Virus record (IMG/VR): IMGVR_UViG_3300046791_000289
Coordinates: 1 to 63,218 of that record
Origin: a virus
Direction: 5' to 3' (one strand)
DNA: 63,218 bases
Shown: one piece after another, positions 22,950 to 39,973 of the stretch
How the letters are laid out: each line of letters begins with the position of its first letter
How positions within the stretch are numbered: the stretch's first letter is position 1
Translations under genes and position numbers: made by a program
Notes under the pieces: generated by a model
What the model was told of the DNA's origin: nothing
Database searches by the model: none
Seen by the model: the letters and a program-made list of their open reading frames with translations, nothing else

Positions 22950-23419
22950 GAGTGCGCGGCGTGATAGGGGTGAAGCCGCCCACGCTGTTGCCCATTCACG
23001 AGGATCGGCGTGGAGTGGTACGCGCCAAGCCGCCCGAGTTCGTGGCGAACCGCAAGGCGCGAAAGGTCCAGGCGTCACGCGCGCTCAAGGCGACGGAGAA
23101 GGCGATCGATGCCGCGCTGGTCTCCATGGCGCGCTCGATCGCCGATGAGCTTCCGCTCGACAAACTCGTCGACACGGGCCGTCTCATGCCGTCGATCACG
23201 GCCTGGCTCGATGACCGCTACGGCACGTCATCGCTCCAGGTCGGCCCGCTCCGCCTCGAGACCATGTGGGTGCGAGGTGGGTACATCTGGCGGTGCGGCG
23301 ATCTCCACCTGTTCAACCCGTCGACGTTCCCGACACAGGCGGAGGCGCAGATCGCCGCGGAGCGCGGCCTCCGCGAGTTCCTCACGAGCATGCTCCTCGC
23401 CCTACCGGCGCCGCGATGA
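22943..23419 (+). CDS. Hypothetical protein, 158 aa
   Basis: ATG at 22943 overlaps the preceding gene by seven bases. Basic N-terminus (RKARKVQASRALK), helices, then strands with WRCGDLHLFNPSTFP. The stop overlaps the next ATG. No family recognised. Confidence 0.6.
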   Translation: MVRVRGVIGVKPPTLLPIHEDRRGVVRAKPPEFVANRKARKVQASRALKATEKAIDAALVSMARSIADELPLDKLVDTGRLMPSITAWLDDRYGTSSLQVGPLRLETMWVRGGYIWRCGDLHLFNPSTFPTQAEAQIAAERGLREFLTSMLLALPAPR

Positions 23420-23820
23420 CCCGCCTCGAGATCATCGCCGCGATCGCCACGCGCCGGGTTGCGATGCTCCGCCCGGTGAAGGGCCCGCGTGCCGCGCGCC
23501 CCCCGCGGATCTACAAGGCCCGGCCGTACAAGCCGCGAACGAAGCCGTCGACGTGGAAGCCGGGGCCCGGTTGCTGTCGATGTGGCCGTCCGCGCGACGG
23601 CGCCAAGGCCCGCTGTGCCGAGTGCCGCGCGAGCGAGGGGAAGCAGCGCGACGCCCGGATCGCGGCCGGCATCTGCTATCAGGCGTGGTCCCACGGCCCG
23701 GCCGCGCCCGGCGGCACCTCGTGCGCGACGTGCCGCGAGTTCTACCGGGTCCAGATGGCCGTCCGGAAGGCTGCGAAGCGCGAGGCCAGCAAGGCGCTGG
23801 AGCTGACCAGCGCGGCATGA
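23416..23820 (+). CDS. Basic zinc-finger-like protein, 134 aa
   Basis: CCRCGRPRDGAKARCAEC (about 53-70) and CATC (about 111-114) give two CxxC pairs plus extra cysteines; the protein is rich in Arg and Lys. It may bind DNA. ATGA overlap at the start. It ends a transcription unit: a new promoter follows at 23835. Confidence 0.6.
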   Translation: MTRLEIIAAIATRRVAMLRPVKGPRAARPPRIYKARPYKPRTKPSTWKPGPGCCRCGRPRDGAKARCAECRASEGKQRDARIAAGICYQAWSHGPAAPGGTSCATCREFYRVQMAVRKAAKREASKALELTSAA

Positions 23821-23834
23821 CGCGACGTCTTATG

Positions 23835-23864
23835 TTGACCGTCAATGCCGCAAGGTGATAGATG
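23835..23864 (+). promoter_or_regulatory. Promoter before the small-gene cluster
   Basis: TTGACC (23835-23840) within ATGTTGACC, an 18-bp spacer, TAGATG (23859-23864), six bases, ATG at 23871. The ATG at 23871 is in frame with the gene called at 23931, so either a leaderless 94-residue protein or a short leader with a mini-ORF is made. Confidence 0.55.
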
Positions 23865-23895
23865 GTAGACATGAGAGGACTAGAAGAAATCAAGC

Positions 23896-23934
23896 ATGGC
23901 GACGCCCATCGACGACCTCGCGAGCCTCCTATGA
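23896..23934 (+). CDS. Possible 12-residue leader peptide
   Basis: ATG at 23896 encodes MATPIDDLASLL and stops at 23932-23934, with its TGA overlapping the next ATG (ATGA), exactly as real genes do here. GAAGAAAT lies upstream as a weak ribosome site. It could couple translation of the next gene. Alternatively the region is only the N-terminus of a longer leaderless reading from 23871. Confidence 0.35.
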   Translation: MATPIDDLASLL

Positions 23935-24155
23935 GCGGGACCGTGAGTCCCTCGTTCCTCGTCGAGGGCCCGCCGCTCGATGCATCGGCGACGTTGCCCG
24001 AGGCGCGCGCGATCCCGTTCGCGAGCGCGAGCGATGACCCGCGCACGCTCGGCGATCCGATCTACTTCGCGATCCAGCAACGGCGCTTCACCGCGGAGGA
24101 CGCCGGCCGCCTCCTCGTCGGCATGGCCCGACATCGGAGCGCGTGCCCGCTGTGA
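23931..24155 (+). CDS. Hypothetical protein, 74 aa
   Basis: ATG at 23931; an in-frame ATG at 23871 would add 20 residues of basic, non-typical composition. The C-terminus has a helical FAIQQRRFTAEDAGRLLVGM segment. Unknown function. The stop overlaps the next GTG. Confidence 0.6.
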   Translation: MSGTVSPSFLVEGPPLDASATLPEARAIPFASASDDPRTLGDPIYFAIQQRRFTAEDAGRLLVGMARHRSACPL

Positions 24156-24229
24156 GCTGGTTCTTGATCCTCGCCGCGATCGTCGTCATCGCCGGCGTGC
24201 CTGAGATGCCACCGCGGCGGCGACGATGA
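24152..24229 (+). CDS. 25-residue membrane peptide
   Basis: GTG at 24152: residues 3-16 (WFLILAAIVVIAGV) are hydrophobic and the tail is PPRRRR. It is coupled on both sides by GTGA and ATGA. A tiny single-pass membrane protein with a positive cytoplasmic tail; unknown role. Confidence 0.5.
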   Translation: MSWFLILAAIVVIAGVPEMPPRRRR

Positions 24230-24504
24230 CAACCTCGCGGCCGTTCGTGCGCGCGGGCAAGGTCTGGCGCGTGCTCGGCATGGTCCCGGAGACCGAGGGC
24301 CGCGAGGGCGTCGAGATGATCGCCTACCGCGTGAACGGCATCGGCGCGTCGTGCGGCCACTACCACACGACGCAGGACGAGGCGGAGGCGTGTCCGTGGG
24401 AGCCGGTGCCGCCACCGCCGGTGTACGCCGGCATCGTGCGCCAGGTGCGTGACGATCGCGGCGATGTTCGGCGATGGCGCCAGGCCACGATGCCCTGGGC
24501 ATAG
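24226..24504 (+). CDS. Hypothetical protein, 92 aa
   Basis: ATG at 24226. Strand-rich with a CGHYHTTQDEAEAC segment whose Cys/His residues could bind zinc; Pro-rich after it. Last gene before the terminases. No family recognised. Confidence 0.6.
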   Translation: MTTSRPFVRAGKVWRVLGMVPETEGREGVEMIAYRVNGIGASCGHYHTTQDEAEACPWEPVPPPPVYAGIVRQVRDDRGDVRRWRQATMPWA

Positions 24505-24510
24505 CGCACG

Positions 24511-24527
24511 CATCACGCTACGTGACG
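24511..24527. promoter_or_regulatory. Palindrome upstream of terminase genes
   Basis: CATCACGCTACGTGACG matches CGTCACGNNNCGTGACG with one mismatch. It is in a 49-base intergenic gap and ends 26 bases before the small terminase ATG, where a -35 or activator site would sit (a CATGCT box lies six bases from the ATG). It may also be a packaging-site element. Confidence 0.5.
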
Positions 24528-24553
24528 TCCGCGCCGCGTGCCATGCTCGAGGC

Positions 24554-25084
24554 ATGGGAGGACACCACACAATCCGCGCGCGCGAACTCCTCGTGCGCGA
24601 GCTATGGGCGAAGGGGCGCGACTCGCGCGACATCCAAGAGGAGGTGGCCGCCGGCGACCCGGCGATCGGCCTCCCCCCCTGCGACACGCGCACGGTGCGG
24701 AGCTACCTCCAGCGCCTGCGCGGCGAGATGGCGAAGGTTGACGCGGAGGATCTCACCCACGCCCGCACGCAACGGCGCGGCGTGCTGCGGGCGAACCTCC
24801 TGCGCGCCCACCGGCTTGCCGACCTCGCCGAGAAAGCCGGGAACCACGGCGCCGCCGTGCGCGCGGCCAAACTCGTGAACGAGTGCGTCGACCGCCTCAA
24901 CGCGCTCGACAACCTCAACGTGATCACGGTCGACATCAAGCCGAACGAGTCCGGCGTGAGCCTCGCCGGCACCTCGGCCCTGCCCGACCTGTCAAAGATC
25001 TCGCCGGAGGTGCGGGCCGCGCTCGTGGCCGTCGCTCAGGCCGTCAAGACCGCGGCCGCCAAGCTCCCCACGCCGGAGTCCTGA
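24554..25084 (+). CDS. Terminase small subunit-like protein
   Basis: 176 residues from ATG at 24554. Residues about 5-55 form a HTH-like region (RELWAKGRDSRDIQEEVAAG, then RTVRSYLQRLR) that would recognise the packaging site. The following helices (MAKVDAEDL, RANLLRAHRLADLAEKAGN) fit the oligomerisation core of small terminases. Position right before the large terminase supports the call. Confidence 0.7.
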   Translation: MGGHHTIRARELLVRELWAKGRDSRDIQEEVAAGDPAIGLPPCDTRTVRSYLQRLRGEMAKVDAEDLTHARTQRRGVLRANLLRAHRLADLAEKAGNHGAAVRAAKLVNECVDRLNALDNLNVITVDIKPNESGVSLAGTSALPDLSKISPEVRAALVAVAQAVKTAAAKLPTPES

Positions 25085-25086
25085 TC

Positions 25087-26796
25087 GTGGGCCGCCCGCT
25101 CTCCGCGCGCGCGCGCCGGATCGCCGCCGTGCGCCAGACCGTGAAGGGCCGGGCCGAGCGCGCGCCCAGCAAGCCCCGCCGCGGCAACGGCGCCAAGGCG
25201 AAGGCGACCACGCCGCTCACGATGACCGAGCACGAGGATCTGATCGACCTCGCGCTCACCGATCCCGACGCCCTGCTCCTCGCCGACGCCAAGGGCCGGG
25301 CGGAGGCCTCCTTCGCCGCGTTCGTGGGGCTCCTCTGGCACGAGGTGATCCCGGACCGCCGCGCCTGGGGCTGGGCGTTCGACGCGATCTGCGACCATCT
25401 CGAGGCGGTCACCTACGGCCACATCCGCCGGCTCTTGATCAACGTCCCGCCGGGGTTCTCCAAGAGCGCGCTTACCAACGTGTTCTGGCCGGCGTGGGAG
25501 TGGGGCCCGCTCAACCGCCCGCACCTCGCGCACTTCGCGACGTCGCACGACCTCGAGATGGCCACGGAACAAAACCGGCTCTGTCGCGAGTTGATCACGT
25601 CACCGCTGTATCAGCGCCTGTGGGGCGATCGCGTCCAGCTCTACAAGGATCAGAGCGCCAAAAAGCGGTTCATCATCCGCGGCGGTGGCTTCCGCGCCGT
25701 CACCGCGTTGACCTCCGCCACCGGCGGCCGCGGTCACCGCATGGTCGCCGACGACATCCACTCCGTGATGGGCGCCGAGTCCGAGGCGGACCGCTCGGCG
25801 GCCCGGCGCTCGTTCTCGAAGGTTCTGCCCTCGCGCCTCAAGGTGCCCGACCGCGACGCGCTCGTGATGATCGGCCAGCGCCTGCATCCGCGCGATGCCT
25901 ACTCGCTGGCGATCCGCCTGGGCTACGTGCATCTCGCGCTCCCCATGCGCTGGTCGCTCAAGCACAAGTACCAATGGAAGGGCGCCGCCCTCGAGCCGCT
26001 CACGCAATACGGCGGCGGAGATCCGCGCTCGACGGAAGGCGAGTTGCTCAACACCGAGCGCTACCCCGCGCGCGCGGAGGGCGAGCTACGCGACCAGCTA
26101 CGGATCGAGGGCGGGCTCGCCGCGGAGGCCGGCCAGCTCGATCAGAACCCGACCGAAGAGGGCGGCACGATCTTTCCGCTCGAGGAGTCGCGCTATCAGA
26201 TCGTGGACTACGTCCCGCACGTGCTCGGCGCGATCGCGTGCCGCGGGTGGGACTTCGCCGCCACGATCTCGCTCGCCTCGAAGTGGTCCGCCGGCGTGAA
26301 GTTGTGGCGCGTCCCGTTCGAGGGCGACGAGGAGCAGATCCAGGCCGGTGGCGTCCCGCGCTACCGCTGGTTCATCGAACACGTGGAGCGGTTCCGCGGC
26401 ACCCCGCTCACCGTCCGCCAGAAGCTCCGCGCGCGCGCCGAGCACGACGGCTACGACGTCGTCATCTCGATCCCGAAGGATCCGGCCGCCGCCGGCGTGG
26501 TCCAGCTCGAGGACTACGGCGCGACGTTGTCCGGGTTCAACGTGCACTCGAGCCCCGAGACGGGGAGCAAGGCGGATCGCGCGGCGCCCTTGGCGGCACA
26601 AGCCGAACTCGGCAACCTGTACCTTGTGCGCGGCGATTGGAACGCGGCCTTCATCTCCGAGGCCCAGAGCTTCACCGGGCACGAGAGCGGCATCTCCGAC
26701 CAGATCGACGGCGCGACCCGCGCATTTTCCAAGCTGGCCCCGCGCGCCGTCCGGCGTACCGTGGGCGGCGCGTACACGATCGAGATCACGACCTGA
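25087..26796 (+). CDS. terL: Terminase large subunit
   Basis: 569 residues from GTG at 25087. ATPase domain: LLINVPPGFSKSALT (about 117-130) as Walker A, TSATGGRGHRMVADDI (209-224) holding the Walker B aspartates. The RNase H-like nuclease follows, with RGWDFAAT (about 394-401) supplying the first metal-binding Asp. It packages DNA into proheads and cuts it. The N-terminal 40 residues are a basic extension. Confidence 0.9.
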   Translation: MGRPLSARARRIAAVRQTVKGRAERAPSKPRRGNGAKAKATTPLTMTEHEDLIDLALTDPDALLLADAKGRAEASFAAFVGLLWHEVIPDRRAWGWAFDAICDHLEAVTYGHIRRLLINVPPGFSKSALTNVFWPAWEWGPLNRPHLAHFATSHDLEMATEQNRLCRELITSPLYQRLWGDRVQLYKDQSAKKRFIIRGGGFRAVTALTSATGGRGHRMVADDIHSVMGAESEADRSAARRSFSKVLPSRLKVPDRDALVMIGQRLHPRDAYSLAIRLGYVHLALPMRWSLKHKYQWKGAALEPLTQYGGGDPRSTEGELLNTERYPARAEGELRDQLRIEGGLAAEAGQLDQNPTEEGGTIFPLEESRYQIVDYVPHVLGAIACRGWDFAATISLASKWSAGVKLWRVPFEGDEEQIQAGGVPRYRWFIEHVERFRGTPLTVRQKLRARAEHDGYDVVISIPKDPAAAGVVQLEDYGATLSGFNVHSSPETGSKADRAAPLAAQAELGNLYLVRGDWNAAFISEAQSFTGHESGISDQIDGATRAFSKLAPRAVRRTVGGAYTIEITT

Positions 26797-26804
26797 GAGG
26801 CCCC

Positions 26805-28376
26805 ATGCCATCGTTCATCCGTTCCCTGGCGTCCATGTTCTCGAGCCCGGCCGCGTCCAGCACGAGCCTCGATCAGGTCGCGTCGCCGCCGGCCGTGCCC
26901 GCCGTGATCGCTGGCCCCACCGGAATCGCGATGCCGGAGACGGTCGACCCCACGGAGACGATGGGCGTGGGCGTGGCGCAGTTCATCGGCGGGTACCTGG
27001 CGAGCCGCGAGACCAACCCCGAGTTGGTCGGGCGCGCGCGCTATCGCACGTACCTCGACACCGTGATCAACATCGAGATCGCCGCCGCCGGCATCCGCAT
27101 GTACCACGACCTCCTCCGCGGCGTGGAGTGGAGCTTCGCGCCGCCGGCGCCCTACAAGGACGATCCCGAGGCGATCCAGATGGCCGAGGACGTGAGCCAG
27201 CTCGTGCACATGGCCTCGACGACGTGGAGCGAGATCGTGGGCAACGTCGCCCGCTTTCGTCATTGGGATTTCTCGATCAGCGAGTGGAGTCTCCGCAAGA
27301 TCGAGGAGGGCCCGCTCGCGGGCTGGCTCGGGATCGGCTACGTCGAGGTCCGCGAGAACGAGACGATCGAGCAATGGATCCCGGACGAGAACGGCCGGAT
27401 CGTGGGCATCGTCCAGCGCTCGCCGATGGATTTCAAGTTGCGCCCGATCCCGCGGGCCAAGCTGATCTATCGAGCCGATCAGACGTTCACGTCGAGCCCG
27501 GACGGCATCGGCATCATCCGGCACATTGTGCGCGCGAAAGAGCAGGTGCTCCGGTTCGAGGATATCGAGATGATCGGCTTTGACGGCAACCTCCGCGGCA
27601 CGCCGATCGCGTACATCCCCTATGTCGAGATCGCGGCCGCCGTGAAGGCCAACCTGATGTCCGCCAAGGAGGCCAAGGACTCGATCGACGCGATGAAGTC
27701 GATCGTACAGAACCACGTCGTGAGCCGCGGGCGCGGCGTGGCCGTTGACTCGTCGCCGTTCCGCTCGCTCGACGTCAACGGCACGCCGTCGGCGATGCGC
27801 ATGTGGGACCTCAAGACCGTGACGACGGAGGCGGGCTCGCAGAAGGAGTTGGGCGAGGCAATCCGCCGCAAGCGCGAGGACGTCGCGATCGTCTGCTACG
27901 CGGAGGTGCTCCTCCTCGCGACCGGCGGCGGCGGCGGCTCGCACGCGGCCGCCGTAGAGAAGGGCACGCGCATGGCGAACCTGATCAACGGCACCGCCGG
28001 CGAGGTCGGCGAGACCGTCCGGCAGGATCTCCTCATGCCGTTGATGGCGCTCAACGGCAAGCCGGTGGACAAGACCCCGGTCCCAACCGCCTCGTCTGTG
28101 ACCGGGTTCGATGTCAAGGAGGCCGCGGACATCATCACCGCCCAGGCCCAGAGCGGCCAGCCGCTCCGCGACGGCGATCCGGCGATCGACCTCATGCGCA
28201 CGCGCGGCGGGCTCCCCGCGATCCCGCCGGAGGTGATCGCGCGCGCCGAACAAGCCGCCATGCTCCAGCGTCGCGCGATGGCGCGCGTGGTGCCGGGCGC
28301 GACCGATCCGAACGCCCCGCCGAGCAAGGACCCGAACAAGCCGCCGGCGCCCGCGCCGCGCAAGGAGCCCGCATGA
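26805..28376 (+). CDS. Portal protein, Mu gp29/DUF935 type
   Basis: 523 residues from ATG at 26805 with GAGAGG upstream. DUF935 features: TNPELVGRARYRTYLDTVIN near the start, repeated strands around RHWDFSISEWSLRKIEEG, SPDGIGIIRHI, and AVEKGTRMANLINGTAG toward the C-terminus. The portal forms the dodecameric ring at the head vertex. A Pro/Ala-rich tail ends the protein; its stop overlaps the next ATG. Confidence 0.88.
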   Translation: MPSFIRSLASMFSSPAASSTSLDQVASPPAVPAVIAGPTGIAMPETVDPTETMGVGVAQFIGGYLASRETNPELVGRARYRTYLDTVINIEIAAAGIRMYHDLLRGVEWSFAPPAPYKDDPEAIQMAEDVSQLVHMASTTWSEIVGNVARFRHWDFSISEWSLRKIEEGPLAGWLGIGYVEVRENETIEQWIPDENGRIVGIVQRSPMDFKLRPIPRAKLIYRADQTFTSSPDGIGIIRHIVRAKEQVLRFEDIEMIGFDGNLRGTPIAYIPYVEIAAAVKANLMSAKEAKDSIDAMKSIVQNHVVSRGRGVAVDSSPFRSLDVNGTPSAMRMWDLKTVTTEAGSQKELGEAIRRKREDVAIVCYAEVLLLATGGGGGSHAAAVEKGTRMANLINGTAGEVGETVRQDLLMPLMALNGKPVDKTPVPTASSVTGFDVKEAADIITAQAQSGQPLRDGDPAIDLMRTRGGLPAIPPEVIARAEQAAMLQRRAMARVVPGATDPNAPPSKDPNKPPAPAPRKEPA

Positions 28377-28951
28377 CCTCGCCGATCACGATCTCCGGCT
28401 TCATCTTCCCCGTCCTCGCCGACCGCGCCGACGCCGCGCGCTATTTCGCGGGTTCGATGCGCGGCGCCACCTGGCTCGCGCTCGCCGACGCCGTCCAGGA
28501 CATCGCGCTCGTGAACGCGACCATGATGCTTTCGCAGATGACGTGGGAGGGCGACCCGGTCACGCCCGGCCAGTCGCTGCCATTCCCGCGCACGGGCCTC
28601 GACGACCGCGACGGCAACGCCGTGTCGTCAACGATCGTGCCCCAGGACGTCATCAACGGCGCCTGCGAGCTGGCGCTCGCGATCTACCTCAACCCGGACA
28701 AGGTCGCCGGCCAGGCCCAGGGCACCGCGAGCAACATCTCTGAGGTGTCGGCGACGAGCGGGACCTCGGTCTCGTTCTTCCGACCGATCGCCGGCACGCG
28801 GCTCCCCACCGCCGTCGATGAATGGCTCGAGCCCTATCTCGAGGGCGGCGGCACCGGCGGCACCTCGAGCGGCGTGGGCGGCGCGACCGCGTTCGGTACC
28901 GACGAAAGCGGTCACGTGACCTGCATCCCGAACCGCTACCGGGTGTGCTGA
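28373..28951 (+). CDS. Head-tail adaptor-like protein, DnaT-like
   Basis: 192 residues, ATGA overlap. RADAARYFAGSMRGATWLALAD, LVNATMMLSQMTWEG and SLPFPRTGLDDRDGN fit the phage DnaT-like adaptor family that connects portal and tail. The C-terminus is Gly/Thr-rich. Assignment from pattern and position. Confidence 0.6.
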   Translation: MTSPITISGFIFPVLADRADAARYFAGSMRGATWLALADAVQDIALVNATMMLSQMTWEGDPVTPGQSLPFPRTGLDDRDGNAVSSTIVPQDVINGACELALAIYLNPDKVAGQAQGTASNISEVSATSGTSVSFFRPIAGTRLPTAVDEWLEPYLEGGGTGGTSSGVGGATAFGTDESGHVTCIPNRYRVC

Positions 28952-28952
28952 C

Positions 28953-29339
28953 ATGGCCGACTTTCTAGGCGTCGACATCGCCGGCATCATCGACGACACC
29001 TTTACCGACCTCGGGATCGAGGACGCGGAGAGCGCGGTCGCGTCGCTCGTGAAGGTCACGCCCGGCACGCGCACGCCGGGCGCGGAGGCCGCCGGCACGA
29101 ACCCGACCAGCACGACCTACCCAGTCCGCGGCTTCGTCGCGCGCAGGCTGGTCGCGTACACGCCGCAGTCGAACGTGGTGGAGGGCGACCGGCAGATCAT
29201 CGTGTTCGGCGCGAGCGTGGCCGCCGGCGTCGAGATCGTCGCGAACGATCGGATCATCGACGCCAAGGGCAAGATCTGGCGCGTGGTCTCCGCGGTCCTC
29301 GATCCAGCCGGCGCCGTGTGGAAGGTCCACGGCCGGTGA
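28953..29339 (+). CDS. Head completion/closure-like protein
   Basis: 128 residues starting one base after the previous stop. Strands with TTYPVRGFVARRLV, VVEGDRQIIVFGAS, VEIVANDRIIDAKGK and WRVVSAVLD read as the small beta-barrel of SPP1 gp16-like head closure proteins. Position between adaptor and Mu F protein fits. Confidence 0.55.
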   Translation: MADFLGVDIAGIIDDTFTDLGIEDAESAVASLVKVTPGTRTPGAEAAGTNPTSTTYPVRGFVARRLVAYTPQSNVVEGDRQIIVFGASVAAGVEIVANDRIIDAKGKIWRVVSAVLDPAGAVWKVHGR

Positions 29340-30298
29340 TCACGCTCGCCAAGCGCGACGCCGGCGACGTGCCGCGCGATCGCCTGATCGCCCAGATCGA
29401 TCTCTCGGAGGCCGCGATCGGCGAGCGCTTCGCGGAGATGGTCGCGTGGCTCAAGGCGCGGAACGACGTCGAGGAGATCGAGCGCGCCATCGCGAACGGC
29501 GCCTTTGACGTGGTCGCCGACGTCGACCCGGCCGCGCGCGTGTTCGCCGCCGAGATCAACGCGCGCTTCGCGGCCAGCGCGAGCGACGTGCTCGCGAGCA
29601 TGTCGAGCCAGACCAGCCTGGCCCTGCACTACGACGTCACGAACTACGCCGCGATCCAGGCGATGCAGGCGAACACGCTCGAGGTCGTGCAATCGATCCG
29701 CGAGGAATCCCGCGACCTGGCCCGCACGATCCTGAGCGAGGGCATCGCCGCCGGCGACAACCCGCGCGTGATCGCGACGACCGTGCACAACACGATCGGG
29801 CTCACGACCTACGACCACGAGATCATCGCGAACTACCGGCGCGCGCTCGAGACCGCCGACGCGCACGCGCTCACCTACGAGCTGCGCGATCTCCGGTTCG
29901 ATCGCCGCGTCGATGCCGCGGCTCGCGGTGGCCGCCGGCTCTCGCAGGAGCAGATCGATCGCGCCGTCGCGCGCTACAGCGCGAACCGCCTCGATCATCG
30001 CCAGGAGGTGGTCGCGCGCACGGAGGCGCTGTCATCCGTGCACGAGGGCGTGGACGCCGGGATCGATCAGGCCGTGGCGACCGGCGCGCTCGAGGCGGAC
30101 GCGATCATCGCGGAGTGGCTCGCCGGCCACCCCCCGCGCACGCGGTTCTGGCACGCGTCGATGAACGGCCAGCGCCGCGCCTACGGCGAGCCGTTCCTCT
30201 CGGGCCAGGGGAACCCCCTCCGCTACCCCGGCGACCGCGCCGCCCCGGCGGACGAGCGCGCCAACTGCCGCTGTCAGAAGGTAATCCGGGTCCGGTAG
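29336..30298 (+). CDS. Mu F-like minor head morphogenesis protein
   Basis: 320 residues from GTG at 29336 (GTGA). The C-terminal 70 residues carry the Phage_Mu_F signature: RFWHASMNGQRRAYGEPFLS, NPLRYPGDRAAPADERANCRC, with paired cysteines. The N-terminal two thirds are helical. Such proteins are injected or sit in the head and can be needed for assembly. Followed by a regulatory region. Confidence 0.85.
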   Translation: MITLAKRDAGDVPRDRLIAQIDLSEAAIGERFAEMVAWLKARNDVEEIERAIANGAFDVVADVDPAARVFAAEINARFAASASDVLASMSSQTSLALHYDVTNYAAIQAMQANTLEVVQSIREESRDLARTILSEGIAAGDNPRVIATTVHNTIGLTTYDHEIIANYRRALETADAHALTYELRDLRFDRRVDAAARGGRRLSQEQIDRAVARYSANRLDHRQEVVARTEALSSVHEGVDAGIDQAVATGALEADAIIAEWLAGHPPRTRFWHASMNGQRRAYGEPFLSGQGNPLRYPGDRAAPADERANCRCQKVIRVR

Positions 30299-30316
30299 TG
30301 TCCGAATCCGGCATGG

Positions 30317-30363
30317 ACGCTACGCATAGCGTTCTTGCGTACTGAAAACGCTACTGCTAGCGT
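30317..30363. promoter_or_regulatory. Paired 16-bp operators and promoter before protease gene
   Basis: ACGCTACGCATAGCGT (30317-30332) and ACGCTACTGCTAGCGT (30348-30363) are two perfect ACGCTA-N4-TAGCGT inverted repeats with starts 31 bp apart, three helical turns. A promoter lies between them: TTGCGT (30335-30340), 17-bp spacer, TAGCGT (30358-30363), with ATG nine bases on. The right palindrome covers the -10, so a bound dimer would block it; the left could also support looping or activation. Confidence 0.7.
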
Positions 30364-30372
30364 GGCCACGAG

Positions 30373-32028
30373 ATGCCGCCCAAGCGCGTTCAGATCGTGG
30401 GGACCGTCGTCAAGGTCGCGGGTGGCGTGGCCTACGGTCACGCCGTCGTCGCGAACTACGACGGCGAGGACTACTTCGATCTCCAGGGCGACAACGTGGA
30501 CATGGACTCGCTCCGCGACTGCGCGACGGCGTTCATGCAAGGCACCCGCACCGCCAAGCGCATGCACAAGGGCGGCGCCGCGGGCCAGATCGTGCACTCG
30601 ATGCCGCTGGACGCGGAGATGGCCGCCGCGTTCGGCATCACGACCAAGAAGCTGGGCTGGCTCATCGGCATGCTCCCCGGCTCGGAGGAGTTGGCGAAGG
30701 AGATGGCCGACGGCCTCCTCCCGGCGTTCTCGATCGGCGGGCTCGGCGAGCGCGTCGAGATCGACGCCGACGGCACCGAAAAGGGCCTTGGGTTCGTATC
30801 GCTGGCCAAGGATGGCAGCGACAAGGGCCAGAAGGGCAAGCGCTACCGCCTCCGCCTCAAGCGGCTGGACGAGGTAAGCGCGGTCGACCGCCCGGCCCAG
30901 GAGTGGGCGACCGTCGCGCTCATCAAGAACGCCGACGGCACCTCGACGCGTCCGGCGCCCGGACGGTCGGTCCTGATCGCCAAGCTCGCCGCGCCACTGC
31001 TCAAGTCGGTGTTCCTCACCACCGCGACCGCCGGGCACCAGCATCGCCTGTCGATGTGCGGCTACGACGACGAGCGCATGACCAGCGGCGACACCTCGTA
31101 TGAGAGCGGCGGCGGTGCCAGGGACTTCGGTCACTCGCATGCCTGGATCTGCGGCGACGACGGCAAGGTGACGATCGCCGAGTCGCACGGTCACACGCAC
31201 GAGCTGGGCCCCGAGGCGGCGGAGATCCCGACCGATGAAGCCGAGCCCGCCGAGCCCCCCACCGATCCCCGCGTCGCCGTCGTGGCGCGCGACCCCAACG
31301 CACCGCCCACGATCGATCCCCCAAGCCCGGAGCCCGCCGCCATGCCGATGACCCCCGAAGAACTCGCCAAGTACAACCGCGCGCTGGCGCTCGCCGAGAT
31401 GACCGACGCGCAGAAGGCGTGGTTGGGCAAGCTCCCCGCGCTCGCCGCGGACGCGTTCGTCGCCAAGAGCGCGCCCGAGCGCGAGGCCGCGCTCGCCGCC
31501 GATGCGCCGGTCTATACGATCCGCCACGGCGAGAGCGCGGGCACCGTGCTCCGCAAGAGCGACCCCACCGCGCTGGTCTCCGCGTGCAAGATGGCCGACG
31601 CCTCGCACGATGCGACCGTCAAGGCCCAGGGCGAGGCCGCCGACTCGATCGCGAAGGCGGTCGCGCTCGAGACCATCCCCTACCTCGCCGGCACGGGCGA
31701 CGTGCACACCGCGATCATCAAGTCGGTGACCGCGATCGGCGACGAGGCGCTCCGCAAGGGCGCGATGGATGCGCTCAAGGGCGCGAACGCGGCCGTCCAG
31801 ATGCTCACGAAGCAGGCGGGCTTCAACGGCGGCGCCCAGCCCGGCGCCGGCGGCACCTCGCGCGCCAAGCTCACCGAGAAGGCCCGCGAGCGCGCGGCCA
31901 AGAACGGTGAGGATCTCGCGGTCGCGAAGGCGTGGCTCCTCGAGCATGACTCGGAGGCCCGCGCGCTCTACGACCAGATCGACAAGGAAGATCGCGCCGC
32001 GCAGGCCTCCGCGCGCGCCAGCGCCTGA
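30373..32028 (+). CDS. XkdF-like capsid maturation protease with scaffold region
   Basis: 551 residues. Residues about 1-190 match XkdF-type putative serine proteases: YGHAVVANYDGEDYFDLQGD, MQGTRTAKRMHKGGAAGQIV, LPAFSIGGLGERVEI. Residues about 215-280 are His-rich (GHQHRLS, GHSHAW, HGHTHEL), a probable metal-binding insertion. From about residue 325 an Ala/Glu/Lys-rich helical region looks like scaffold. One gene thus seems to make protease plus scaffold. Confidence 0.75.
   Translation: MPPKRVQIVGTVVKVAGGVAYGHAVVANYDGEDYFDLQGDNVDMDSLRDCATAFMQGTRTAKRMHKGGAAGQIVHSMPLDAEMAAAFGITTKKLGWLIGMLPGSEELAKEMADGLLPAFSIGGLGERVEIDADGTEKGLGFVSLAKDGSDKGQKGKRYRLRLKRLDEVSAVDRPAQEWATVALIKNADGTSTRPAPGRSVLIAKLAAPLLKSVFLTTATAGHQHRLSMCGYDDERMTSGDTSYESGGGARDFGHSHAWICGDDGKVTIAESHGHTHELGPEAAEIPTDEAEPAEPPTDPRVAVVARDPNAPPTIDPPSPEPAAMPMTPEELAKYNRALALAEMTDAQKAWLGKLPALAADAFVAKSAPEREAALAADAPVYTIRHGESAGTVLRKSDPTALVSACKMADASHDATVKAQGEAADSIAKAVALETIPYLAGTGDVHTAIIKSVTAIGDEALRKGAMDALKGANAAVQMLTKQAGFNGGAQPGAGGTSRAKLTEKARERAAKNGEDLAVAKAWLLEHDSEARALYDQIDKEDRAAQASARASA
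31342..32028 (+). CDS. Probable nested scaffolding protein (internal start)
   Basis: An in-frame ATG at 31342 (MPMTPEELAKYNRALALAE) has GGAG about ten bases upstream and begins exactly where the helical scaffold-like region starts. Lambda C/Nu3 and many other phages make scaffold this way. Produces 228 residues if used. Not proven by sequence alone. Confidence 0.45.
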   Translation: MPMTPEELAKYNRALALAEMTDAQKAWLGKLPALAADAFVAKSAPEREAALAADAPVYTIRHGESAGTVLRKSDPTALVSACKMADASHDATVKAQGEAADSIAKAVALETIPYLAGTGDVHTAIIKSVTAIGDEALRKGAMDALKGANAAVQMLTKQAGFNGGAQPGAGGTSRAKLTEKARERAAKNGEDLAVAKAWLLEHDSEARALYDQIDKEDRAAQASARASA

Positions 32029-32081
32029 TCTCCGTCGCCCCGCCCTCTCCCGATCCCACCGCCACCTCCACAGGAGCCGCT

Positions 32082-33095
32082 ATGTCGAACGAGAACCTCT
32101 CCCCCGCACTGACGAAGCCGGTCTCAACGGCGCTGGCGGCCGCGATCGTCGCCGGCACGACCAAGAAGTACGCCGGCGTCACCCTCAACTCGTCCGGCCA
32201 GTGGGACCTCCCCTCGGCCGGCGGCACGATCGACGCCGTCCTCTACTCGGCGGACGTCACCGTCGCGGGCAACCGCGCGCGCGGGCAGACCGTGGGCTCC
32301 GGCCAGGTCTACGTGCGCGCGGGCGCGACGATCGCGGTCGGCGACGATCTCAAGGTCGACACCGCGGGCGGCTTCATCGCGTGCGTGGCCGGTGATGTCG
32401 CGCTCGGCAAGCGCGTGGCGAAGTGCACGGAGGCGGGCACCGTCGGATCGATCGCGTCGGCGATCCTCTGCGGCGGCTCGGCCGTCGTCGTGGTCGCCGG
32501 CACCGACGTTCAGTCGACCGCCGGTGCGATCACCGTCCTGTCGGAGGAGACCGACCTCGTGATCGCGGGAACGATGGCGTTCTCGCTCGCGGACGGGCGC
32601 ACGGTCGGCCAGCGCAAGCGCATCGAGGTGACGTCGGCCACGGCGACCCCCGACGGCACGCTCACGATCACCACGCCGGTCCCCGGCGAGTCCGGCGCCG
32701 GCGTGTTCAAGCTGGGCGCCGTCGGCCAGTTCCTCGTGCTGGAGTGGACCGCCACCGGCTGGCACGTGATCGAAAAGCACCGCGCCGGCGCCAAGACCTA
32801 CGTGGTCGGCACGGCGGCGCCGGGCAACATGGTGGAGAACATCGACCTGTCCGTGACCGGCACCGTGTCGGGCGCGCTCCAGGACGGCAACGTCCCCGGC
32901 GAGATCATCCACGTCTCGCAGTCGGTGGCGTCGACCTCGCCCATCGGCACCCTCACCGGCAAGTACCGGACGAAGCTCGGTGTGCTCGCGTCGGTGAGCA
33001 CCACGGGCTGGACCGCGACGACCTCGTTCCTCTACGCCGTCTGGGACGGTGTGGCGTGGAACGAGATCGCCAGCTCGGGTCTCACCTTCAACTGA
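32082..33095 (+). CDS. Capsid decoration protein, DUF2190-like, with extension
   Basis: 337 residues with AGGAG seven bases before ATG 32082. The first 140 residues repeat short strands with Gly/Ala and GTTKKYAGVTLNSSGQWDL, VTVAGNRARGQTVGSGQVYV, VGDDLKVDTAGGF, typical of small cement proteins encoded before the major capsid. The C-terminal 190 residues are another beta-rich domain, longer than the usual family, perhaps a surface-exposed host or decoration module. Confidence 0.65.
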   Translation: MSNENLSPALTKPVSTALAAAIVAGTTKKYAGVTLNSSGQWDLPSAGGTIDAVLYSADVTVAGNRARGQTVGSGQVYVRAGATIAVGDDLKVDTAGGFIACVAGDVALGKRVAKCTEAGTVGSIASAILCGGSAVVVVAGTDVQSTAGAITVLSEETDLVIAGTMAFSLADGRTVGQRKRIEVTSATATPDGTLTITTPVPGESGAGVFKLGAVGQFLVLEWTATGWHVIEKHRAGAKTYVVGTAAPGNMVENIDLSVTGTVSGALQDGNVPGEIIHVSQSVASTSPIGTLTGKYRTKLGVLASVSTTGWTATTSFLYAVWDGVAWNEIASSGLTFN

Positions 33096-33102
33096 TCGCC
33101 GC

Positions 33103-33118
33103 GCCCCGCGCGCGGGGC
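33103..33118 (+). terminator. Hairpin before the major capsid gene
   Basis: GCCCCG-cgcg-CGGGGC gives a 6-bp GC stem with a 4-base loop, 8 bases after the decoration protein stop. No T-run follows, so it may be an mRNA-stability element or weak attenuator. Confidence 0.35.
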
Positions 33119-33178
33119 TCTCCACCACCGCACCGCCCTGTACTCCACGCCTCCTCACCTCCACCGGAGACCCCCGCC

Positions 33179-34234
33179 ATGAGCTACCTCGAGCATATCC
33201 ACAAGGGCTCGCCCGACCCGGGCGACGTGTACATCCGCCCCGAGATCACGGACATGTCCGTGGCCTACATGATCAAGAACGGGGCCGGGTTCTTGAACAC
33301 GATGTTCCCGGACTGCCCCGTCAAGCTCCAGCAGGGCAAGTATCGGTACTACGACCCGGCCGCGTTCTTCAGCGACGACATGGAGGAGCGCGCGGACGGC
33401 GCCGAGTCCGCGGGCGGCGGGTTCGACACCTCGACGCGCGACTACGCGACGCGCGTGTTCGCGTGGCACACCGACATCGGGCCGCAGATGCGCGCGAACG
33501 CGTCGAACGTCGACGTCGATCGCGCGGCCGCGGGCCTGTGCACCAACAAGGCGCTCCTCAACCGCGAGACCCGCTTCATCGCGATCGCGTGGAAGACGGG
33601 CGTGTGGTCGACGGAGCGCTACTTCAACGCGGGCGGCTCGCCGACGAACACCGGCGCCACCGGCTCACGCTGGCTCTCGTGGGCGGATGACGCCTCGGAC
33701 CCGATCCGCGATCTGCGGCGCACGCTCCAGGCCCAGCGGCTCGCGTCGTTCGGATACCGAGTGAACCAGATCGCGTTTTCGGAGGACGTCTGGGAGCGCA
33801 TCATGGTGCACCCGAAGATCGTCTCGCGGTTCACCGCCGGCCAGACGCCGGGCGGGCCCGCGATGGCCGATCCGGGCAAGGTCATGACCGGCATGGAGCA
33901 GTTGCTCTCGACGCCGGAGTTCCCGATCAAGATCCGCGTCGGGCTCGGGATCAAGAACACCGCCAAGAAGGGCCTCACCGGCGTGCCCGCGCTGATCGCC
34001 ACCACGGGCGTGCTCGGGCTCTACGTGCCGGCCGCGCCGTCGCCGCTGGAGCCGAGCGCGGGCTACACGTTCAACTGGACGAGCTACCTGGGCGCGGGCG
34101 CGCAGGGCCAGGTGATCACCCGCGAGGTCGTGCCGCTCACCAAGGGCGCCCAGCGCTACGAGATCGAGATCGCGAACGACGCCGTGATCGTCGCGCCGGA
34201 CGCCGGGTTCTGGTGCGAGGGCGTCCTCTCCTGA
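33179..34234 (+). CDS. Major capsid protein
   Basis: 351 residues from ATG 33179 with CGGAGA upstream. Features of the major capsid lineage in DUF935-portal phages: early YIRPEITDMSVAYM, a VKLQQGKYRYYDPAAFF strand, RRTLQAQRLASFGYRVNQIAFSE helix-turn and a C-terminal YEIEIANDAVIV strand region. Position after the decoration gene and before tail completion genes fits. It lacks a long N-terminal delta domain, consistent with a separate scaffold. Confidence 0.85.
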   Translation: MSYLEHIHKGSPDPGDVYIRPEITDMSVAYMIKNGAGFLNTMFPDCPVKLQQGKYRYYDPAAFFSDDMEERADGAESAGGGFDTSTRDYATRVFAWHTDIGPQMRANASNVDVDRAAAGLCTNKALLNRETRFIAIAWKTGVWSTERYFNAGGSPTNTGATGSRWLSWADDASDPIRDLRRTLQAQRLASFGYRVNQIAFSEDVWERIMVHPKIVSRFTAGQTPGGPAMADPGKVMTGMEQLLSTPEFPIKIRVGLGIKNTAKKGLTGVPALIATTGVLGLYVPAAPSPLEPSAGYTFNWTSYLGAGAQGQVITREVVPLTKGAQRYEIEIANDAVIVAPDAGFWCEGVLS

Positions 34235-34240
34235 TCGTGA

Positions 34241-34261
34241 CGCGGGCGGCTCTCGCCCGCG
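34241..34261 (+). terminator. Hairpin after the major capsid gene
   Basis: CGCGGGCG-gctct-CGCCCGCG, an 8-bp perfect GC stem with a 5-base loop, begins seven bases after the capsid stop. No clear T-run. Likely attenuates read-through or protects the abundant capsid mRNA. Confidence 0.5.
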
Positions 34262-34336
34262 CGTGACAGACACCGCCGGCGCCGGTCGCGCCGCGCTCCA
34301 CCTGGCAGCGAACCCGCCAGGCACCGGGAGGTCACG

Positions 34337-34648
34337 ATGGATCAGAACACCAGCACGGGCGTGGATCCGCTCTTTCAGCCCGACAAGGGCGCGTATGCGG
34401 TCGCGGATTTCCGGTACGCCGGCAAGGAGTACCTCATCGGGGAACCCTTCCCGGTGAAGGATCTCCCCCAGCTCGAGATCTGGACGATGTGGCGCGGCGG
34501 ACGGATCGAGTTCGGCGAGCCAAACCCGCTCGCGCTCGCGGACGCCAAGGCGCGCCGCGAGGAGATCGAGGCGGAGGCCAAGCTCCGGGCCAAGCTCGCC
34601 GAGCGCGCCGCCAAGGCCGGCAAGACACCCGCCACGGCGGCGAGCTGA
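34337..34648 (+). CDS. Small head/neck-region protein, 103 aa
   Basis: ATG 34337 with GGGAGG five bases upstream. N-terminal loop and strands (FRYAGKEYLIGEPFPVKD), then a highly charged Ala/Glu/Lys/Arg C-terminal helix. Located between capsid and tail completion genes; exact role unknown. Confidence 0.6.
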   Translation: MDQNTSTGVDPLFQPDKGAYAVADFRYAGKEYLIGEPFPVKDLPQLEIWTMWRGGRIEFGEPNPLALADAKARREEIEAEAKLRAKLAERAAKAGKTPATAAS

Positions 34649-34679
34649 TCGGGAGGCGCCGGTAACGGCGGCCCCCACG

Positions 34680-35177
34680 ATGGCGCTCCCCTCGAGCGGG
34701 CCGGTTGTCTCCCTCGACGACCAGCTCGCCGCGATCACCGCCGACCTCAAGCGCCACCTGGAGCGCGAGATGGTCGCGCTCGCGTTCGAGGTTCACGCCA
34801 ACCTCACGCACGACACGCCGATCGATACGGGGTGGGCCGCGGCCAACTGGATCCCCGGCTTCATCGACTCGAACCCTCAGGCCAGCCCCGGCGCCGCGGC
34901 GGCTGGCCTCGCCGCGATCGCGGCCTACACCCTCGAGCGCGGATCGATCGTCATCGCTAACCCGGTGCCCTACGTGCGGTGGCTGAACTACGGCACGAGC
35001 CACAAGGCCCCGGCCGGCTTCGTCGAGATCGCGGTCGAGCGCGCGATCGCGACGCGTGCGGGCGAGAAAACGCTCACGCCGCGGCGCGGGACGCTCGTCC
35101 AGGGCCCGACCTACTCGCCGGCCCGCCGCGATCGCCAGGAGATCCGCGAGTCGCTCCGGCCGCGAGGCCCGACGTGA
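34680..35177 (+). CDS. HK97 gp10-like tail completion protein
   Basis: 165 residues. ANLTHDTPIDTGWAAANW, ANPVPYVRWLNYGTSHKAPA and a following basic helix are the hallmark of gp10/minor tail completion proteins that sit between head and tail. Basic C-terminus. Confidence 0.75.
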   Translation: MALPSSGPVVSLDDQLAAITADLKRHLEREMVALAFEVHANLTHDTPIDTGWAAANWIPGFIDSNPQASPGAAAAGLAAIAAYTLERGSIVIANPVPYVRWLNYGTSHKAPAGFVEIAVERAIATRAGEKTLTPRRGTLVQGPTYSPARRDRQEIRESLRPRGPT

Positions 35178-36652
35178 ACTCGCTAGCCACGCCAGGGCCC
35201 TGGACCCTCAACAACCGCGATGAGCTGGTGCGGCGCCAGGTGCGCCCGCGCGTGACCCATCCCCTCTGGATCGGCCAGAGCAACGCGCTGGGCTACACCG
35301 GCGCGAGCGTGACGACCGACAACGGCCTCCGCGCGGCGGTGCCCTATGCGGCGTCGCAGATCGACACCGCGATCTCGTTCGCGTGGCCCTCCTCCGCCCA
35401 GCCGCGCCGCGACGTCCAGCCCTACGCCGCGAGCCCGCCGGATGCCGGCGCCGAGCTGGGCTACGCGCGCGCCGCGATTCAGCTTGGCGTGGCCGCGTCC
35501 GTGCTCCAGCAAAGCAAGATGGCCGTGGCCGGCGTCGAGATCGACACGATCCTCCTCGACGCCAACTACTCACGGATGGTCACGTACGCGCGCGCGCAGG
35601 AGGCCGCGACGGGCCATCTGATCTCGGACGTCCACCTCTGGCATGGCGAGGCGGACGCCGTCGACGACACGCGCGGCGGGAACTACTACGCGCGACTGAC
35701 CACGCTCGGCGGGAAGCTCCGCACGGACTTCCCCGGGTGCCGGATCTGGCTCATGCGGCTCAACGCGGCCGCGACGGGCGCCGCGATCACGGCCTCCGGG
35801 CGCGCGCTCGTGCGCGCGGCGCAAGCACAGTTCGCCGCCGATCATCCGTCCTACGTCTGGCTCATCGACCTGGACGATGTCTTGCTCGGCGGCGACGGCG
35901 TCCACTACCCCCAGGAGAGCTATTGGACGGTCGGCACCCGGCTCGCCTGGACGCAAGCGCGCGCGCTCGGCTACCTCCTGCCCGACGAGCGTGTGAGCGG
36001 GTGTCCCTCGATCCGCGCCGTCACGAACCCGTGCGTGTCGTCGGGCACGATCGGCGCGAGCGTGAAGCCGCACGCGACGCCGGCGCTGATCGACGAACTC
36101 CAGCTCTTGGCGGTCTGTGCGGGCGGCATCCTGGAGGTGCCCACGCTCTCCGACGCACAGGGATTCGTCGAGATCGCGGGATCGCCCGTGGTGTCCCTGA
36201 GTAGCGGCGTGCGCTGTTACACGGCGGTCTATTGGCGTTACTACAAGGGCCAGGGCAACCCGACGATCGCGGGCGGCTCGCAGCAACGACGGTGCGCCAA
36301 GATCGTGACCATCAACGGCGCCGCGCTCGACGGCGCCGCGATCGTGGCGGTGACCTCGAACGTCAATAACGCGTTCGTCGTCGGAATGTCGCTCCCGTCC
36401 GTGGTGACGTCGCTCGATCGGTGCCTCGTGATCGCGTTCCACGGTCACCACGCGAGCGGCCTCAACGCGCTCACGATGGATGGCGGCCAGGAGGCCAGCC
36501 TCGCGATCGACTCGTACGGACCCGCGAATCAGAAGCTATCGATCATCGCCGACGCGATGCCGGTGCACGGCACGCGCGCGGCGCGCACAGGATCGCACGC
36601 GATCATCACGTTGCAGGCTACGATCCAGGTCGTCATCAAGGCGGCCGCGTAG
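35174..36652 (+). CDS. SGNH-type esterase in the tail operon
   Basis: 492 residues from GTG 35174 (GTGA). SGNH blocks: LWIGQSN with nucleophile S36, HLWHGEAD (154-161), and DGVHYP with D241 and H244 as the other triad members. This is the sialate O-acetylesterase/carbohydrate-esterase arrangement. The C-terminal 190 residues form a separate beta-rich domain (VVSLSSGVRCYTAVYWRYY). A virion-associated enzyme deacetylating host polysaccharide is plausible; it is unusual for the gene to lie here. Confidence 0.75.
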   Translation: MNSLATPGPWTLNNRDELVRRQVRPRVTHPLWIGQSNALGYTGASVTTDNGLRAAVPYAASQIDTAISFAWPSSAQPRRDVQPYAASPPDAGAELGYARAAIQLGVAASVLQQSKMAVAGVEIDTILLDANYSRMVTYARAQEAATGHLISDVHLWHGEADAVDDTRGGNYYARLTTLGGKLRTDFPGCRIWLMRLNAAATGAAITASGRALVRAAQAQFAADHPSYVWLIDLDDVLLGGDGVHYPQESYWTVGTRLAWTQARALGYLLPDERVSGCPSIRAVTNPCVSSGTIGASVKPHATPALIDELQLLAVCAGGILEVPTLSDAQGFVEIAGSPVVSLSSGVRCYTAVYWRYYKGQGNPTIAGGSQQRRCAKIVTINGAALDGAAIVAVTSNVNNAFVVGMSLPSVVTSLDRCLVIAFHGHHASGLNALTMDGGQEASLAIDSYGPANQKLSIIADAMPVHGTRAARTGSHAIITLQATIQVVIKAAA

Positions 36653-36659
36653 GAGCCCT

Positions 36660-37262
36660 ATGCAACGGATCAAGCTCAACACCACGACCCGCGGGATCCC
36701 GCTCTTTGCGGCCTCCAGCGTCGATCTCCAGGTCGCGCTGGACGCGTCCGCCTTGACGTTCACCGTCGCGGTGATCAAGGCCGACGGGACCTCGCAGGCC
36801 GGCGCCGGATCGGGCGGGATCAGCAACGCCGGCATCACGCAACCGAGCCTCTCCCTCGCGCGCGGCGTCTGCTACTACACGCCGGGCGCCAGCGACGTGA
36901 ACGTGTATGGGCCCACCGTGTTCGTGTTCACGGCGAGCGGCATGGAGACGCGGCGCGAGGTCGTCGACGTCGTGGCGCACGATCCGTACGACCCGATCCG
37001 CGCCGGCCTCACCGCGCTCCGGCCCGACCCGATCCTCGTCGGCGCGGCCGTGACCGGCACGCTCACCGCCGCCGCGTTCACCACGAACCTGGCGATCGCG
37101 TCGAACGCGCTCAAGAACGAGGCCCACTGTCGGTTCGTGACCGGCGCGCTCGCGGGCGAGGTCCAGAAGATCACCGGCTACGCCGCGGGCGTCCTCTCGT
37201 TCACGGCCGGGTTCTCCGCCGCCCCCGCCAACCTCGACGCGTTCGTGGTCGTGAACGGATGA
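36660..37262 (+). CDS. Tail-associated protein with repeat module, 200 aa
   Basis: ATG 36660 with AGGAG. Two halves: an N-terminal beta domain (DLQVALDASALTFTVAVI) and a C-terminal 70-residue domain (VTGTLTAAAFTTNL to AFVVVNG) that is paralogous to the C-terminus of the gene at 44239-45150. The module probably mediates binding in the virion. No function can be named. Confidence 0.65.
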   Translation: MQRIKLNTTTRGIPLFAASSVDLQVALDASALTFTVAVIKADGTSQAGAGSGGISNAGITQPSLSLARGVCYYTPGASDVNVYGPTVFVFTASGMETRREVVDVVAHDPYDPIRAGLTALRPDPILVGAAVTGTLTAAAFTTNLAIASNALKNEAHCRFVTGALAGEVQKITGYAAGVLSFTAGFSAAPANLDAFVVVNG

Positions 37263-37759
37263 GCCTCCTCCTCCTCGCCAGCGATGACGCCGTCGTCATC
37301 CCGCCGATCCCGCCGTCGCCGGCGCCCACGCTGGCGTCCGTCGAATGGGACGAGGCGACGCGGCTCGCGTTCGCGCGCGTGCTCACGTTGTGGGTGGACG
37401 GCCTGGGCGCGCCGCTCACGCCGATCAACCTCGACGACGAGACCATGGCGGAGCCGGAGGGCGTGCCGTGGATCCGCGTGAGCACGCGCGAGACCGCGTC
37501 GCGCATCCGTGCCATGACCGACGCCGGCGCCCATCGCTTCGCGCGCGAGGCCAACGTGTGGATCCAGGTGTTCGCCCCGCCCGATGGCGCGGACGTCGCG
37601 AACAAGCTCGCCAAGCGCGCGCGCCTCATGTTCGAGGGCGTGCGCATCAACGCCGCGATGGTGTTCGACGCCGCGCGGATCATCACCCTCGGTTTCGACG
37701 GCGCGAAATGGTACGCCGTGACCGTCCAGGCCCCGTTTCGGTACTACGAGACCCACTGA
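37259..37759 (+). CDS. Tail terminator-like protein
   Basis: 166 residues, ATGA overlap. WIRVSTRETASRI, FAREANVWIQVFAP and VTVQAPFRYYETH match the order of strands in tail terminator/neck proteins of the gpU type. Placed just before the tube protein, as expected. Confidence 0.6.
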   Translation: MSLLLLASDDAVVIPPIPPSPAPTLASVEWDEATRLAFARVLTLWVDGLGAPLTPINLDDETMAEPEGVPWIRVSTRETASRIRAMTDAGAHRFAREANVWIQVFAPPDGADVANKLAKRARLMFEGVRINAAMVFDAARIITLGFDGAKWYAVTVQAPFRYYETH

Positions 37760-37772
37760 CAGGAGCCCAGCC

Positions 37773-39287: not shown

Positions 39288-39288
39288 T

Positions 39289-39347
39289 TCGGGGCCGCCG
39301 GTCCCCGAGGGAGTCCTCCCGGTCCCCCGGCGCGCGTCGTGCGCGCC
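39289..39347 (+). terminator. Tandem hairpins after the tube gene
   Basis: TCGGGG-N8-CCCCGA (39289-39308) and GGCGCGC-gtcgt-GCGCGCC (39329-39347) follow the tube stop. Neither has a T-run. They probably limit read-through or stabilise the tube message. The remaining gap to 39445 holds only the candidate promoter listed separately. Confidence 0.45.
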
Positions 39348-39392
39348 TCCGGCGTGTTCGCGGCTCGGATCGTGAGGTCCGGGCCGTTCGCA

Positions 39393-39422
39393 TTTTCGGC
39401 GGCGCCGCGCGCCTGCTACGGT
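39393..39422 (+). promoter_or_regulatory. Candidate promoter before tail chaperone
   Basis: An extended -10, TGCTACGGT (39414-39422), uses the same TACGGT box as the promoter at 53497. The -35 is poor (TTTTCG, 18 bp away). It is followed by an mRNA leader with AGGAGG before ATG 39446, unlike the leaderless class. Confidence 0.35.
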
Positions 39423-39445
39423 GCGCGCAGGAGGACTCAGACCCC

Positions 39446-39973
39446 ATGCCCGATTTCTCGCACCTCGCCAACCTAGCCACCGACGCCACGCTCACGGCGC
39501 GGCTCACGATCCCGGAGATTACCGTCCACGGCCAGGAGCTGGCGCCCGACGGCAACCCCAAGCCGGATGGGTGCACGCCCGTCCTCTTCGTCGTGAGCAC
39601 CGGCGAAAAGAACGTCGAGTATTCGCGCAAGATCGCCGCCGTCGCGCTCCAGCGCGCGAAGCAGCGCGCCGCGATGACCACGGAGGAATGGCTCCGCGCG
39701 AACCGCGAGGCGCGCGCGCGCTTCCGCAAGTTGGCCCCCGCGCTCGTCGTCAAGGGCTGGGCGAACGTCTACGAGACCACGCCCAACGGGCCGCGTGAGG
39801 TCCCGTTCTCGATCAGCGCCTGTGAGGAGTTGTTCGCGCCCGAGGACGCCAAGGGGCCCGATGGCAAGCCCAAGCCTGGCCTCCCGGATCAGATCGTGGA
39901 CCGCGTGATCGCGTTCTGCTCTGACGAGGCCAACTTCACGCACGCGAACGTCGAGGCCGTCGCAAAAAACTAG
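39446..39973 (+). CDS. Tail assembly chaperone G
   Basis: 175 residues from ATG 39446 with AGGAGG. Short acidic and helical protein with a beta N-terminus (TARLTIPEITVHGQEL), immediately before a -1 slippery site and upstream of the tape measure, the position of lambda G. It coats the tape measure during assembly. Most ribosomes stop at TAG 39971-39973. Confidence 0.8.
   Translation: MPDFSHLANLATDATLTARLTIPEITVHGQELAPDGNPKPDGCTPVLFVVSTGEKNVEYSRKIAAVALQRAKQRAAMTTEEWLRANREARARFRKLAPALVVKGWANVYETTPNGPREVPFSISACEELFAPEDAKGPDGKPKPGLPDQIVDRVIAFCSDEANFTHANVEAVAKN

Follow-up and report, generated by a model that had tools for sequence, protein, structure and literature searches.

A twin palindrome resembling an NrdR operator precedes the capsid genes of a GC-rich tailed phage

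NrdR is a dATP/ATP-sensing repressor of ribonucleotide reductase genes in bacteria, and the mechanism by which it reads nucleotides was solved recently. To our knowledge, no targets other than reductase genes have been described for it. Its operator consists of two 16-bp palindromes [NrdR boxes; Rodionov and Gelfand 2005, as cited in PMC12051234] lying 15-16 bp apart (PMC12176259). NrdR binds best when the box centres are an integral number of helical turns apart, the S. coelicolor and E. coli proteins prefer spacers of 15 and 16 bp, and the spacer ranges for box pairs are 14-17 bp or 24-27 bp (PMC12051234). Within each box, C4 and G13 are contacts needed for specificity (PMC9110341), and the published core, C.[AT].A[AT].[AT].G, has an A8-[AT]9 centre (PMC12051234). 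The DNA is kinked at the central AT in the solved NrdR structure; an AG centre is present in a functional E. coli nrdAB box (PMC12176259).

We analysed a phage record of 63,218 bases (the whole stretch, called the window here) with about 70% G+C and a tailed-phage head module on the plus strand (Table 1). Two perfect 6+4+6 palindromes of the form ACGCTA-N4-TAGCGT lie in a 74-bp gap ahead of the head maturation protease gene. The initial annotation had described two perfect repeats 31 bp apart; both exact copies were found, with their starts 31 bp apart, and no further exact copy occurs anywhere in the record. It had also placed them before structural genes, which holds, as the genes that follow the pair encode the head protease, the decoration-like protein and the major capsid protein.

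Table 1. Coordinates of the palindrome pair, its surroundings and the pairs in other phages
Feature	Position	Strand	Remarks
Box 1, ACGCTACGCATAGCGT	30317..30332	.	6-bp arms, centre CGCA; exact match
Spacer, TCTTGCGTACTGAAA	30333..30347		15 bp; box centres 31 bp apart, about three helical turns
Box 2, ACGCTACTGCTAGCGT	30348..30363	.	6-bp arms, centre CTGC; exact match
Possible -35, TTGCGT	30335..30340	+	3/6 consensus; lies between the boxes; read from sequence
Possible extended -10, TGC-TAGCGT	30355..30363	+	hexamer TAGCGT at 30358-30363, 3/6; inside box 2; read from sequence
Terminase large subunit	frame 24883-26796	+	head module
Portal	within frame 25494-28376	+	head module
Adaptor and head closure genes		+	between portal and head morphogenesis in the listed module order
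Head morphogenesis protein, upstream gene	29318..30298	+	PHROG 3517, E 2e-66; ends 18 bp before box 1
Head maturation protease (Peptidase_S78_2 / XkdF type), 551 aa	30373..32028	+	first gene downstream of the boxes
Decoration-like protein, 337 aa	32082..33095	+	from position and look; syntenic ORF in L276 and L316
Major capsid protein, 351 aa	33179..34234	+	PHROG 1005, E 1e-47; capsid alignment
Perfect hairpin	34241..34261	+	directly after the capsid gene; possible unit end; without T run
Repeated promoter-like element	687 (-), 7499 (+), 60501 (-), 61192 (-), about 62175 (-)	
Canonical pairs, unrelated tailed phages	L177:2980-3060, L184:6790-6860, L199:1470-1530		
Freshwater-lineage pairs, examples	L160:1255-1302, L173:4255-4302, L213:4508-4555		

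The protease matches Pfam PF14550 (26.3 bits against a 24-bit cut-off) and PHROGs 3017 and 1530. It aligns with the C-terminal part of PHROG 1530, which is named DNA methyltransferase; since related phages carry proteases annotated as methyltransferase/prohead protease fusions, that name probably comes from a fused domain absent here. No family match was found for the decoration-like protein. The hairpin after the capsid gene suggests that the protease, decoration-like and capsid genes may form one unit. A search of the record found no class I/II reductase or NrdR gene, and the same holds for all 12 viral records tested, the window included, many of which are fragments.

The pair shares with NrdR boxes the 16-bp palindromes, the arms (ACrCTA/TAGyGT), a 15-bp spacer that sets the centres integral turns apart, C4 and G13 in each box, and placement at the start of an operon. 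The reading as a twin operator of about three turns, a spacing that had been taken to favour cooperative binding, was upheld, and NrdR proteins bind box pairs well over a 15-bp spacer (PMC12051234). The window pair differs in its centres, which are not of the A/T type and do not match the published NrdR core in either box on either strand. Position 3 of each box is G instead of the usual A (G is also found in many Saccharibacteria nrd promoters), and the gene that follows is neither a reductase gene nor nrdR: the pair precedes capsid genes in a phage in which no nrd gene was found, whereas NrdR boxes precede nrd genes. Because the site departs from the core centre, the defining feature, we call it NrdR-like and do not file it as an NrdR box. 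Judged by their sequence, the twin palindromes appear to be a real dual operator of NrdR type.

To place these arms and this spacing, we scanned bacterial genomes, one per species, with the pattern ACGCTANNNNTAGCGTN{14,17}ACGCTA. The scan gave 118 loci, mostly in Saccharibacteria, with others in Caulobacter, Treponema, Nomurabacteria and cyanobacteria. Clustering of the neighbouring genes linked 42 of the 118 to nrd genes (22 to ATP-cone/NrdD anaerobic reductase, 17 to class II reductase NrdJ and 3 to nrdR), and for the main neighbour groups one to three representatives were confirmed by Pfam. The arms and spacing of the window pair are therefore those of an nrd operator in bacteria. Among the 42 nrd-linked ACGCTA pairs, an AT centre is present in both boxes of 17, in one box of 24 and in neither box of a single pair (L042), which lies before nrdR itself. 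An NrdR operator without AT centres is possible but rare. The sampled genomes from the classes of Kutzneria and Caulobacter (395 + 385) contained no ACGCTA pair except in the seeds.

Other neighbours in the bacterial scan include a murA-like gene, a Sel1-repeat gene of Caulobacter, and genes for CTP synthase and RNase H. Genes for CTP synthase (L050, L053, L079, L081, L138, L140), RNase H (L072, L083, L151) and MraZ (L059, L121) follow an NrdR-type pair in Saccharibacteria and related groups, which suggests a wider NrdR regulon there. At ten loci (L049, L056, L057, L092, L110, L114, L123, L128, L131, L145), the named ones from Caulobacter, ACGCTA-N4-TAGCGT is followed by a second ACGCTA 15-16 bp on. 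Here the motif lies at most 38 bp before a Sel1-repeat/peptidoglycan-binding gene, which we take to resemble podJ, and beside a DnaA-box-like TCCACAG.

The initial annotation had left the regulator unnamed and pointed to two phage HTH proteins. No convincing HTH regulator was found among the window proteins scanned with Pfam and PHROGs, many small genes being without a family, and the sole DNA-binding hint was a sub-threshold MatP_C (ribbon-helix-helix) match in the minus-strand ORF 767-1132. The arms and spacing point to the host NrdR, which comes out as the single likeliest regulator among those weighed, at a little under an even chance; this estimate was cut back strongly because of the missing AT centre and the lack of conservation (below), despite the specific likeness in arms, gap and spacer. 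With the same near-even confidence we read the window pair as an NrdR-type dual operator over the protease-decoration-capsid unit, bound most likely by that host protein. Another dimeric regulator of the phage or its host, binding cooperatively and resembling NrdR by coincidence or convergence, would account for centres that are wrong for NrdR and for a site unique to this phage among ten compared, as expected of fast-changing phage-specific control, and many cooperative regulators bind sites an integral number of turns apart. Arms of the form AC[AG]C[AT]A with a 4-bp gap and a 15-bp spacer are, however, a narrow target to reach by accident, the protein scans yielded no convincing HTH candidate for such a role, and such a protein would be a one-site regulator, since the operator was not found at other intergenic regions of the record. 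We regard such a regulator as a strong contender that nonetheless falls somewhat short of even probability.

Were the host NrdR the regulator, its dATP/ATP-loaded tetramer would grip both boxes on one face of the DNA, which would be bent, and the capsid unit would be shut off while dATP is plentiful. As phage replication drained dATP, NrdR would let go and the capsid genes would be expressed. We infer the presence of a promoter, the binding of NrdR to non-canonical centres and the effect on timing. Lytic infection by the pneumococcal phage SpSL1 is reported to induce the host NrdR regulon strongly (PMC6755750), which indicates that genes under NrdR can be switched on in a lytic infection.

A -35/-10 promoter bracketed by the boxes, as first annotated, was not confirmed in that form. 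The hexamers that can be drawn lie 17 bp apart, with TG at 30355-30356 ahead of the -10, and a consensus scan of 22000-40000 yielded no sigma-70-like promoter. With each hexamer at half of the consensus and no scanner report, a promoter at the box pair is therefore plausible and its reading from the sequence weak; the pair is placed where it could cover a promoter, and this part of the annotation stands even as the promoter itself does not find confirmation. As drawn, the promoter would start RNA ~3 nt before the ATG, giving a nearly leaderless message. Pseudomonas phage YuA reportedly has sigma-54 promoters in its structural region, and such phages have a capsid protein of the same family as that of the window. 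The two would be alike in having a dedicated, host-dependent control before the structural region; unlike YuA, the window has no match to the sigma-54 site TGGCAY-N5-TTGC, and we rejected sigma-54 control on this ground.

At the RNA level, the arms of each site could pair into a 6-bp stem closed by a loop of 4 nt, with 9 nt separating the second site from the start codon. Such hairpins might govern translation, RNA processing or termination at the junction of the head morphogenesis and protease genes. Against such a role, shuffled sequences fold as stably as 30296-30420 is predicted to (z -0.77), the sites show no T run, terminator call or Rfam match, and a function in RNA would not call for two identical arms in phase with the helix. 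A tRNA search also found nothing. We consider an RNA-level role very unlikely.

Relatives of the phage were obtained with a capsid alignment; single-protein scans of viral contigs with the protease and head morphogenesis proteins gave none. The closest (two records) have capsid proteins 50-51% identical and the same gene order, with another short reading frame or a longer gap before the protease. A motif search in relatives had been suggested by the initial annotation, with non-conservation to count against the operator, and its outcome is partly adverse: a single box with at most one mismatch occurs in 0/9 related phages (L276, L316, L277 and six more), and the fetched region of these nine contains no box pair. 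Nor did the 74-bp gap show DNA similarity to phage and plasmid records beyond weak, chance-level matches (E 0.2 or worse). A site not conserved in relatives, in a stretch without similar DNA elsewhere, would suit a chance occurrence or a relic, such as a captured host promoter fragment now without function. Two perfect copies stand against that reading, with 0.0004 exact single sites expected per window by chance (first-order Markov estimate), as does their placement in one of the few AT-richer gaps that precede genes in the record. We also scored the best pair at spacers 14-17 in each of 150 simulated windows against the NrdR consensus positions, 28 being the full score. The real pair scores 24/28 and the best simulated pair at most 22, so that 0/150 windows reached it. 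Chance or relic is the least likely account of the pair, and even taken jointly, an RNA-level role and a lack of function are improbable.

We also searched other phages for such pairs. The 35 contigs from a first-pass pattern scan were mostly AT-rich and shared no genomic context, and that scan was set aside as uninformative; relaxed scans of viral contigs gave about a hundred loci with a pair. When AT-centred boxes were sought with the gap left free at 4-34 bp, 34 of 39 viral loci had gaps of 15-17 bp, the phasing expected of NrdR. Several pairs stand directly before head genes: the portal gene begins 7 nt after box 2 in L177, L201 and L229; a head-tail-joining gene begins 3-12 nt after it, followed by the portal, in L180, L184, L196, L207, L209, L214 and L234; and head-tail connectors follow in L171, L178, L191 and L217, and at greater distance in L199. 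The terminase large subunit lies upstream of the pair in L177, L178, L180 and L191. Both boxes match the published NrdR core in the L177, L180/L184 and L199 groups, in each case downstream of or near packaging genes.

The pairs of L177, the L184 group and L199 resemble that of the window in abutting or shortly preceding a tailed-phage structural gene, and the L177 spacer contains TTGACT as the window spacer contains TTGCGT; they differ in their AT centres, ACACTA arms and unrelated structural modules. In about 40-50 contigs of a freshwater phage lineage, a single pair of ACACTATAGGTAGTGT boxes (centre TAGG/CCTA), in most cases with a 16-bp spacer, lies in the gap ahead of the terminase genes, 480-600 bp from that of the small subunit, the large subunit gene also being downstream. 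The AT-centred form occupies this gap in the relatives L230 and L236, whose terminase large subunit is 59% identical. Of 101 loci, 55 lie near terminase, portal or connector genes against 18.8 expected. This figure is descriptive and does not amount to a test: the loci are not independent, and the count is biased, the genes used as queries having been chosen at loci where pairs had already turned up. Among cultured relatives of the phages with such pairs (Microbacterium, Roseobacter, Vibrio, Acinetobacter, Alcaligenes, Escherichia, Yersinia and Pelagibacter phages), no canonical pair reached the score.

A search of open-access papers found none describing NrdR boxes on phage structural genes. 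As read from sequence, the canonical NrdR-box pairs before structural genes of unrelated phages are a firmer result than the window site. We propose, tentatively and with more doubt than attaches to the host NrdR as regulator of the window pair, that several unrelated tailed-phage lineages place packaging and structural genes under the host NrdR, so that particle building starts once dATP is drained, and that this GC-rich phage does so with a centre-shifted operator on its capsid unit. If this is true, phages would read the level of DNA precursors as a replication-to-assembly clock without a regulator of their own. The canonical pairs (L177, L184 group) make the question independent of whether the odd centres of the window bind.

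Canonical NrdR pairs also occur in eight proviruses (L175, L185, L198, L208, L212, L249, L255, L257), where box 2 runs into a TTGACA -35 and an excisionase-type gene lies close by (in L257 a member of PHROG 904).

Elsewhere in the window, a single copy of the palindrome with one mismatch, CCGCTACCGGTAGCGT, lies at 781-796, close to where ORF 767-1132 on the minus strand has its 3' end. The view of the twin sites as the clearest operator in the genome is borne out by their perfection and qualified by a repeated promoter-like family around TTGACTCGGCATG, which the record also contains. Its members, TTGAC[TC]..[GC].CATG followed by TAT-rich -10s, stand before outward-facing genes at both record ends. 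They are likely early promoters, possibly with an operator of their own (GGCATG / GTCATG).
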